Below are positions 28,636 through 62,239 of a stretch of DNA of 64,000 nt, piece by piece (positions within the stretch are counted from its first letter, which is position 1; each line of letters opens with the position of its first letter). The notes under the pieces were generated by a model. The model was not told the origin of the DNA, searched no databases, and saw only the letters and a program-made list of their open reading frames with translations. This DNA is from Saccopteryx bilineata (lineage: Eukaryota; Chordata; Mammalia; Chiroptera; Emballonuridae). The DNA is taken from assembly GCF_036850765.1 (NCBI RefSeq), contig NC_089495.1, positions 203,051,847 through 203,115,846 on the forward strand, read 5' to 3'. The translations under genes were made by a program, and so were the position numbers.

Positions 28636-30096
<1,461 letters not shown>

Positions 30097-43035: not shown

Positions 43036-43252
43036 TTAAACATAGAATTACCATATGATCTAGCAATTCTATTTCTAGGAATACATCTAAAAATAATTAA
43101 AAGTGCCCTGGCTGGATAGCTCAGTTGGTTGTAGCGTCATACCGATGCACAGAGGTTGCCAGTTTGATCCCTGGTCAGGACATATACAGGAACAAACTGA
43201 TGTTCCTGTCTCTCCCTCTCTCTCTCCCCCTTACTCCCTCTAAAATCAATTA

Positions 43253-43997
43253 GGGTTTTACTGCTGGTTCGGTCCTCTGTGCTGTCGGTCCGTGTTCCCG
43301 CGGGTGCTACGCTCGCGAGCCATGGCCCTCGCGGTCCGAGTCGTGTATTGTGGTGCTTGAGGCTACAAGCCCAAGTATCTTGAGCTCAAGAAGAAGTTGG
43401 AAGATGAGTTCCCTGGACGCTTGGACATCTGCGGCGAGGGGACTCCCCAGGTTACAGGGTTCTTTGAAGTAATGGTAGCGGGAAAGCTGGTTCATTCCAA
43501 GCAGAGAGGTGATGGCTATGTGGACACCGAGAGCAAGTTTCTGAAGCTGGTAGCCGCCATCAAAGCTGCCTTGGCTCAGGGTTAATGTGCCCTGAAGGCG
43601 GAGTCCAGTGACCTTGGCCCAGCCCTCTTGGCAGACGCTTCATGATGGGATGGACTGAAATGTCTCCACGCGGGGTCTTTCCTTGATGTTCTGCGGCCGC
43701 CAGGTGGGGCAGAAGTCGATGCCCCTGGTCTTTGCCTGTGTGTGTGTGGGAGTGTGTGTGTGTCTCCCTGGAATGTTCCCCTTCCCTCCCCTCCACTTTT
43801 CACCATCTCCTGTAGTCCCCCGTGCCTCCCTGTGTCCCCTCTGGTGTGTGAGATGGCCCTGCTCAGGGCTTCCTTCTCAAGGGAGCTCAGAGAGGGAGCC
43901 GGATGCTTGAGGCTCAGATTTCAGCCATGTTTGCAACAGTACACCGTCAATATATGCTGAATAAATTTAAAATAAATAAATAAATAAATAAATAAAA
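43253..43997 (+). pseudogene. SELENOW: SELENOW processed retrocopy with intact Sec reading frame
   Basis: This is an intronless copy of selenoprotein W, a small thioredoxin-like redox protein. The frame runs 43322-43585 and encodes 87 residues, the usual length. It starts MALAVRVVYCGA, then an in-frame TGA at codon 13 (43358-43360), then [17 protein letters not shown] and so on to AALAQG and TAA. The TGA is the normal selenocysteine codon of the CxxU motif, so it is not a nonsense change. About six residues differ from the human protein as I remember it, and there are no frameshifts. The copy includes 5' UTR, 3' UTR, an AATAAA signal and an A-rich tail. It is bounded by a perfect 12-bp target duplication, TAAAATCAATTA (43241-43252 and 43998-44009), the mark of L1-mediated retroposition. 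It lies antisense in ITCH intron 1, inside the tail of a VES SINE. Whether it is transcribed is unknown; with no visible promoter of its own it is called a retropseudogene with an intact frame. Confidence 0.95.
43636..43697 (+). promoter_or_regulatory. SECIS element of the SELENOW retrocopy
   Basis: In the 3' UTR, 57 bp after the stop, ATGATGG (43642 on) can pair as the non-canonical quartet with TTGATGTT (about 43683-43690). Between them is a GACTGAAATG segment with the conserved unpaired A run of the apical loop. This is the arrangement of the SELENOW SECIS, the RNA hairpin that recodes UGA to selenocysteine by recruiting SECISBP2. Its key bases look intact. Confidence 0.8.
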
Positions 43998-44224
43998 TAA
44001 AATCAATTAAAAAAAGAAAAATAATTAAAAGAACACAAATCTATACTGTATTTGTACACCCATGTTTATAGCATCATTATTCAAAAAATAGCCAATGGAA
44101 GTAACCCAAATGTTCATCAACAGATGAACAGATGAACAAAATGTGGTATACAGATAAAATGGACTATTATTCAGCCTCAAAAAGAAATGAAACTGACATA
44201 TGCTACAACAATAATAGTCTTAAA

Positions 44225-60467: not shown

Positions 60468-61319
60468 GTTCTCCTAATTATTCTAAGGGTCAAATTTGGG
60501 GACTACTTGCCTGTCTGTCTCTTCCAGTAAGTGTAAAGATGCGTGTGTGTTTTAAAGGAATGTAGAAATGACTTCCACTAAAATGCACTAAAGGAGTACT
60601 CTGCCCTTGCTTTTTATTTTGTATCCTATTCTTGTTGACTTGACTCATACTGATTGGACCCATATCCCCCAAACTTGCATTCATTGTTCAAAAAGAAGCA
60701 ACTGAACTTCCACCTTTCATCTAATCTTTAAAAAAAACGAAGTTACTGTACCGTAAGTAAGCCCATGAATACACAGTGCTGGCTGTCTCACCAGATCTGC
60801 CATTAGAACTTTATTTTGGCTGAATAATAAACCCATCGCCGATTCTGAGCGTGGGAATACACACTGCCTTTACATACTTCGTAAACTCGATGTGCATTAA
60901 TAACTGATGCCGGAGACCCCAAGTGCAATGATAGCCGGTTGACTCCAGTGCCTCAGTAATTAAAAAAAAAAATTCCCATTCTCCCTTGCCCACCCCTCAC
61001 TCCACAAGTAAACTGAAGCTGTAGAGTAATGGCAAAAGACATAACAAGATTGACACAATATAACCAAGAAAACAAGCCGAGCTGTTCCTGGGGAATCTTG
61101 AATTATTTCGGGTAGTTTGCAAGCTCACCTGGTTACGTTTCTAATTTCAGGCCCACCCCCGAGGCACAGAGCCTTTATTTTTCTCTAAATCGAGGCTCCG
61201 AACTAAGCCTGAAATTTTGAGTTCCTTACAAAGTCACGTCCTCATCATGTTTCGACCCTGGGAATACGTTCACGGCTACTTTTTTTCTTTTCTCTACTAA
61301 AGAAAAGGGCACTCTAAGG
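60468..61319. other. ITCH intron 1 near the CpG island
   Basis: Repeat-free stretch leading up to the CpG island; contains a donor-like CAG|GTGAGC on the minus strand at 61128. No gene recognised. Confidence 0.5.
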
Positions 61320-61965
61320 AGAGAGGACAGTGACAGTTCCACGTCGGCAAAACTTAGCGCCGGGAGGCGCCGGCGGGGCCGTGGCCGAAGCGGGCACCAC
61401 GGAGGGCGCCGGGACGGGACCACCACGCCCGGGGACAATGGAGGGAGGCCAGCGGAGACGAGGGGAAGCAGCCGCTGTGCTAGGGCGCCCTCGCGACTGG
61501 GGGCTCCAAAAAGTCTCGGCAAGGCCAGCGGGTGGCAGGTGGGCCCAGCCACCGCCCCTTAAAGGGCCACGTCGCTCGCGCCGGCCGCTGCCGCCGGGCC
61601 CCGCGCAGAGGCCGGGCCGCGGGAGGGTGGCCCCGGGCAGCGCTGGGGGACGCGGGGCCGGATCCGGGCGCTTCCCGCTGCCGCACAGCCCTCCCACAAC
61701 GGGGCGGCAGCGAGGCGAGGAGCTCCGGGCGCCTCGGCCCGACAGTGGCCCGTCGGCGCGTCGGGCCGTCCCACCCCCCACCCGGCCCCAGGCACCAGCC
61801 CGAGCTCCCCGCGCCCCCACGGGCACCGGCTCTCAGAGGAAGACGGAGCAGCCGTGCCTGTCGGTCCCGGCCTGCGCGCCGCGCACCTCCACCCCTCGTT
61901 CTTCTCGGGCACTCTTAGGCCCCCTCTCCCCAGAAGTAACCCCGGCCCGCCAGGGGGGTGTTTAC

Positions 61966-62055
61966 CGGGACTCGGGGCGGCGGCGACTCCTCAGTCCCTC
62001 GACTAAGATGGCAGCCGGTCCCGAGCCCCGACCACAGCGACTATATCGAGTTGGC
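61966..62055 (-). other. ITCH: Putative ITCH non-coding exon 1
   Basis: No coding sequence is recognised here, so this is positional inference. ITCH has an untranslated first exon, and the only CpG-rich promoter-like region upstream of exon 2 is here. On the minus strand a GC-rich stretch contains GCTGCCATCTTAGTCGAGGG and then CCGAGTCCCG followed by GTAAAC, a usable splice donor (intron start 61965). The right-hand limit (transcription start) is only estimated from the promoter motifs immediately beyond it. If right, intron 1 is about 26 kb. Another donor-like site, CAG followed by GTGAGC at 61128, is outside the GC-rich core and could serve an alternative first exon. Confidence 0.5.
62005..62018 (+). 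promoter_or_regulatory. YY1-type site near the transcription start
   Basis: AAGATGGCAGCCGG fits the YY1 consensus AANATGGCGGC. Such sites often lie just downstream of the transcription start, which is consistent with its placement inside putative exon 1. Confidence 0.6.
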
Positions 62056-62059
62056 GGCC

Positions 62060-62073
62060 ACTGCGCAGGCGCC
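62060..62073 (+). promoter_or_regulatory. NRF1-type site
   Basis: ACTGCGCAGGCGCC matches the NRF1 half-site pair (TGCGCANGCGC), common in CpG-island promoters. It sits between the ZNF143-type and YY1-type motifs. Confidence 0.7.
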
Positions 62074-62094
62074 TCCAGCTCGGTAGCGATTCGC

Positions 62095-62120
62095 ACTACA
62101 ATCCCCAGAAGGCCTTGCGC
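62095..62120 (+). promoter_or_regulatory. ZNF143/THAP11 (SBS-type) site
   Basis: ACTACAATCCCCAGAAGGCC closely resembles the long ZNF143 element ACTACAATTCCCAGAATGC found just upstream of many bidirectional and housekeeping promoters. It lies 30-60 bp upstream of the estimated ITCH start. Confidence 0.8.
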
Positions 62121-62239
62121 ACTGGCCGCCTGCCCCAACTGGTGGTTCCACTAAAATCGGTTTGTTTGCCCCCAGGTGAGAGGGACTTTTGGACTGTTCC
62201 TAGTGCCTCTACACAGCACCTGAGCCTCTAGAGACTTTA

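Follow-up and report, generated by a model that had tools for sequence, protein, structure and literature searches.

A recent, still coding-competent SELENOW retrocopy in the bat Saccopteryx bilineata

A selenoprotein copy can look whole because it is used or because it is young. Which of these applies to the processed SELENOW copy at positions 43253–43997, on the plus strand of a 64-kb stretch of contig C6 of Saccopteryx bilineata (the whole stretch analysed, hereafter the window)? The features of the locus, in window coordinates, are as follows.

43241–43252, plus strand: 5' copy of the target-site duplication, TAAAATCAATTA, an exact 12-mer within the tail of an older SINE
43253–43321, plus strand: retrocopy 5' UTR; the match to the parent starts at 43257, and 43253–43256 (GGGT) lie outside it
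43322–43585, plus strand: SELENOW coding frame, 87 codons and TAA; protein identical to the parent's
43358–43360, plus strand: in-frame UGA, Sec codon 13, CxxU
43586–43970, plus strand: retrocopy 3' UTR; differs from the parent by 7 substitutions and one 1-base indel
43634–43697, plus strand: predicted SECIS element (RF00031), 40.3 bits; C-to-U at 43683 relative to the parent element (42.7 bits)
43971–43997, plus strand: A-rich tail (AATAAATAAA...); the parent diverges after 43970
43998–44009, plus strand: 3' copy of the target-site duplication, exact 12-mer TAAAATCAATTA

We started with the reading frame. When recomputed, it ran from the ATG at 43322 to the TAA at 43583–43585, with the UGA of codon 13 as the sole internal stop, just as a preliminary description made from the sequence alone had claimed. 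This UGA sits in the motif CGAU (CxxU). The translation scored 55.1 bits against the Rdx domain (Pfam PF10262) and 161.3 bits against PDB 2npb (Selenoprotein W; E 3e-47), and the coding sequence thus has both an Rdx domain and a CxxU encoded by UGA. In the 5' UTR, the ratio of observed to expected CpG is 1.1. With only the protein collection for comparison, residues E21 and Q61 of the copy appeared odd: E occurred at position 21 in 3 and Q at position 61 in 15 of 112 aligned proteins, some of which do not reach those positions. The parent gene has both residues, so they are not changes of the copy. Pattern scans for protein relatives gave 60 matches in viral contigs and 256 in genome contigs, none of them confirmed, as is expected of a mammalian gene. 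Public SELENOW-like gene models of some other bats (Cnephaeus, Molossus and Myotis; P0024, P0028 and P0035) have odd starts and C-terminal tails that differ beyond the usual ALAQ; they are either wrongly annotated near the UGA or have had their stop moved.

Next, we searched for the parent gene in the window's own assembly (2.61 Gb, 256 contigs). Nine matches were found: the copy, five pieces on contig C3 at 98–100% identity, and three short matches (36–39 bp, 92–95%) to the GT-rich stretch of the 3' UTR. The C3 pieces mark a SELENOW gene on the minus strand at C3:311060140–311065217, and aligning the fetched locus added a 26-bp match for the second exon. The parent has six exons and five introns of 2056, 101, 191, 103 and 1914 bp, all GT-AG and none present in the copy; projected on the window, the exon junctions fall after 43350, 43375, 43429, 43504 and 43603. 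The text excerpted from Mariotti et al., 2012 (PMC3316567) likewise gives SelW six exons and places the SECIS in the sixth. Searched with the protein, the genome returned the copy and two exons of the parent, three matches in total; searched with PF10262, it returned only the copy, the short parental exons being missed. Both searches score the best candidates only, and decayed copies could escape them.

The match to the parent spans 43257–43970 with all five introns removed. The parent's genomic sequence does not read GGGT just before the match, as would be expected of the extra 5'-junction bases left by copying a full-length mRNA. At the other end, the tail at 43971–43997 stands where the parent has other sequence; it contains regular T, and is A-rich rather than pure poly(A). 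The 12-mer TAAAATCAATTA abuts both ends of the copy, and on the window's plus strand it occurs at 43241 and 43998 only. Intron loss, full-length ends, a tail and a target-site duplication are the marks of a processed copy made by LINE-1. Exact intron loss, a target-site duplication and a 3' A-rich tail were all found here, which bears out the earlier claim of a SELENOW retrocopy with a perfect 12-bp duplication and an A-rich tail. AATAAA (43960–43965) ends just 5 bases short of where the parent match stops, an unusually small distance for a poly(A) signal; the spacing would be better for a variant signal further upstream, at 43949–43954, which reads AATACA in the parent and AATATA in the copy.

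The insertion target was the tail of an older SINE (43100–43252), which we take to be a bat SINE of the Ves type and which has several diverged relatives in the window. Six other window matches of at least 99 bp are 72–79% identical to it, so the SINE does not date the insertion tightly. Elsewhere, 12 Rfam tRNA matches (29.5–44.3 bits) between window positions 1682 and 63465 are probably tRNA-derived SINE heads, not tRNA genes.

To place the copy in time, we compared it with its parent over 713 bases and found 11 substitutions and one 1-base indel, a divergence of ~1.5%. Two substitutions are in the 5' UTR, two in the coding sequence and seven in the 3' UTR. Both coding changes are synonymous (Thr45 ACG to ACA, Gly87 GGC to GGT). 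The copy-specific bases are at 43293, 43309, 43456, 43582, 43683, 43705, 43714, 43776, 43778, 43783 and 43953, and include 43456 A, 43582 T and 43683 T. In 10 of the 11 substitutions a C or G of the parent is a T or A in the copy (C-to-T or G-to-A), suggesting that most of them arose in the copy, as decay would give, if the direction is read correctly from these two sequences with no outgroup. The noncoding difference is 2.0% (95% interval 0.9–3.8%). Substitution rates are of the order of 1.5–3e-9 per site and year; assuming these, the point value of the noncoding difference corresponds to a rough age of ~3–13 My. Very high identity to a spliced parent would also result from an assembly or library artefact, in which contaminating cDNA had been joined into the contig. 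We give this almost no credence, since the target-site repeat, the A-rich tail and the 11 substitutions with an indel fit a real insertion and not cDNA; moreover, the window sits more than 203 million bases into its contig and the sequence is continuous through both flanks. The SELENOW copy is a real, recent, ordinary and still coding-competent retrocopy.

We then examined the SECIS element. The Rfam covariance model SECIS_1 (RF00031) scored 40.3 bits at 43634–43697, against a gathering score of 35, and so predicts a SECIS in the copy's 3' UTR. The check proposed in the preliminary description, a SECIS predictor run on 43620–43710, is passed in this form, the Rfam model not being a dedicated SECIS predictor. 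The copy has ATGA at 43642, a run of A at 43658 and TGAT at 43684, with the quartet and the A run unchanged from the parent. Its score is 2.4 bits lower than the parent's, and the sole difference is the C to U at 43683, just 5' of the quartet's UGAU, by which one G-C pair in the model becomes G-U; the same two pairs are marked non-standard by the model in both elements. Minimum-energy folding of the 121-nt SECIS region gave z = 0.14, with 106 of 200 shuffles folding as well or better, and when the stem between the quartets was tested against 500 mononucleotide shuffles, 148 of them were at least as good, so that the SECIS was not singled out. Folding being uninformative, it is the covariance model and the near identity to the parent element that support the SECIS call. 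If the copy is transcribed, its mRNA would have all the parts needed for the same selenoprotein.

Near identity of the 3' UTR and SECIS to the parent's would also suit a transcript with a role as RNA and none as protein, for example by competing for SECIS-binding factors or for SELENOW regulators. An effect on SelW mRNA stability is named as a possibility for conserved pseudogenes in the partial text of PMC3316567. Nothing in the sequence calls for such a role, however, and we consider it very improbable.

How much does intactness say about function? We ran neutral simulations under three mutation settings, 4000 runs each, in which 11 substitutions were placed at random in the copy. The frame with its UGA stayed intact in 76–81% of runs, and the frame together with the SECIS core in 65–75%. 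Assumed indel rates of 0.05–0.15 per substitution multiply these figures by a 0.54–0.82 chance of no coding indel, which leaves ~35–61% intact overall. A neutral copy of this age would therefore be intact at roughly even chance, and intactness is no evidence of function. That UGA and SECIS both survive was correctly described, but their survival has little weight as a sign of function.

The protein was unchanged in 2.9–4.9% of the neutral runs, or ~0.04–0.06 given an intact frame. Binomial probabilities of no amino-acid change were 0.026–0.05 if 11 or 9 of the changes arose in the copy, and 0.10–0.19 if only 7 or 5 did. The comparison of dN and dS with the parent, also proposed in the preliminary description, came out in the direction of constraint (dN 0/201, dS 2/60), but it rests on two changes in all and gives a Fisher P of 0.052 for nonsynonymous against synonymous sites. 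Set against all other sites, nonsynonymous sites gave P 0.040; coding against noncoding sites overall gave P 0.34. The lack of amino-acid change is weakly suggestive of constraint, and it is a hint at most because the changes are so few and the copy was chosen for its intactness. Of the proposal that the copy is 'young, or under selection, or both', youth stands, at 1.5% from the parent; selection, at P ~0.03–0.05 on two changes, is at most hinted at.

The window contains a second retrocopy, of RPL4 (window ~28650–30050), whose frame is already split. PF14374 and PF00573 match its second piece, and the first piece has no Pfam match. Segment by segment, the copy is 95–100% identical to C4:53059325–53064385, which looks like the intron-bearing parent. 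RPL4 gave 59 genome matches, among them one of ~200 bp at 96% on C2 and others at 68–87% that look like older copies. A broken frame in the longer RPL4 copy and a whole one in the short SELENOW copy are as expected without selection, although this is a single pair and yields no statistic. A base-rate control with glutathione peroxidase gave 13 genome matches; exon-level matches of this kind cannot separate retrocopies from genes. At 61314–62154, both strands carry long overlapping frames whose translations abound in G, A, R and P; the region resembles a GC-rich island and may mark the start of a gene.

Altogether, we favour, at a probability of about 85%, a recent LINE-1-mediated SELENOW copy that is intact through youth and most likely silent or barely expressed, a neutral pseudogene in the making. 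A full-length, spliced and polyadenylated SELENOW mRNA would have been reverse-transcribed, and the cDNA inserted into the tail of the old SINE, presumably by the LINE-1 machinery. With only 11 substitutions from its parent, the insertion would be recent, and the short time elapsed would explain why frame, UGA and SECIS are all retained. The copied transcript would have arrived with no parental promoter, and the copy is thus most likely silent or barely expressed, and presumably neutral.

Could it instead be a young functional retrogene, with a borrowed promoter, that serves as a second source of selenoprotein W under purifying selection? The identical protein, the dN and dS given above and a SECIS still above the cut-off are what such a gene would have, and there are precedents. 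A murine GPx4 'functional retrotransposon' appears as a title in the reference list of PMC3316567. SPS2b (SEPHS2) is a functional exception noted in the excerpts of PMC3316567 and PMC12822975; like the bat copy, it is an intronless product of retrotransposition in which the Sec codon and SECIS of a selenoprotein gene were carried along, but it is ancient and replaced the original gene in placental mammals, whereas the bat copy is recent and its intron-bearing parent is present (PMC3316567, in the same excerpts). We nevertheless think a functional retrogene unlikely: P is only ~0.03–0.05 with two coding changes in total, the copy was picked for being intact, and the parent's upstream sequence was not copied.

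Additional SelW copies are familiar in mammals. The available passages of Mariotti et al., 2012 (PMC3316567) report 19 SelW pseudogenes across 13 mammals, including one from a 'microbat', and the reference list includes a title on human SEPW1P, a SELENOW processed pseudogene. Most of the selenoprotein pseudogenes of that study have frameshifts or other disabling changes, and a primate SelW pseudogene covering two coding exons has lost the SECIS-quartet GA needed for Sec insertion. In contrast, the bat copy keeps its frame, UGA and quartet, most simply because it is young. Retrotransposed selenoprotein pseudogenes are described as abundant in mammalian genomes in the excerpted text of a more recent paper (PMC12822975, 2026), according to which some have neither stops nor frameshifts and so end up among the predictions. 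Typically they lack introns, most give no sign of being transcribed, and they show no conservation. The bat copy resembles those that Selenoprofiles lineage is designed to filter out, being intronless, without frameshift, with UGA kept and near-identical to the functional copy, and by these sequence marks, as opposed to conservation or transcription, we saw no difference in kind from the copies described in that excerpt. A search for papers combining 'selenoprotein w' and 'retrocopy' found none; this concerns the wording only and carries no claim on whether the copy is in print.

The locus is a clean case of a selenoprotein retrocopy that has not yet decayed and whose parent could be located in its own assembly; an intact copy of this kind is a concrete false-positive risk in selenoprotein annotation. 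Only expression or conservation of the copy would raise its importance. It is doubtful that the copy is a lineage-specific second SELENOW gene, a few My old, which would be transcribed, insert selenocysteine through its own SECIS and be kept by selection; if it were, this lineage would have two loci for the same selenoprotein.
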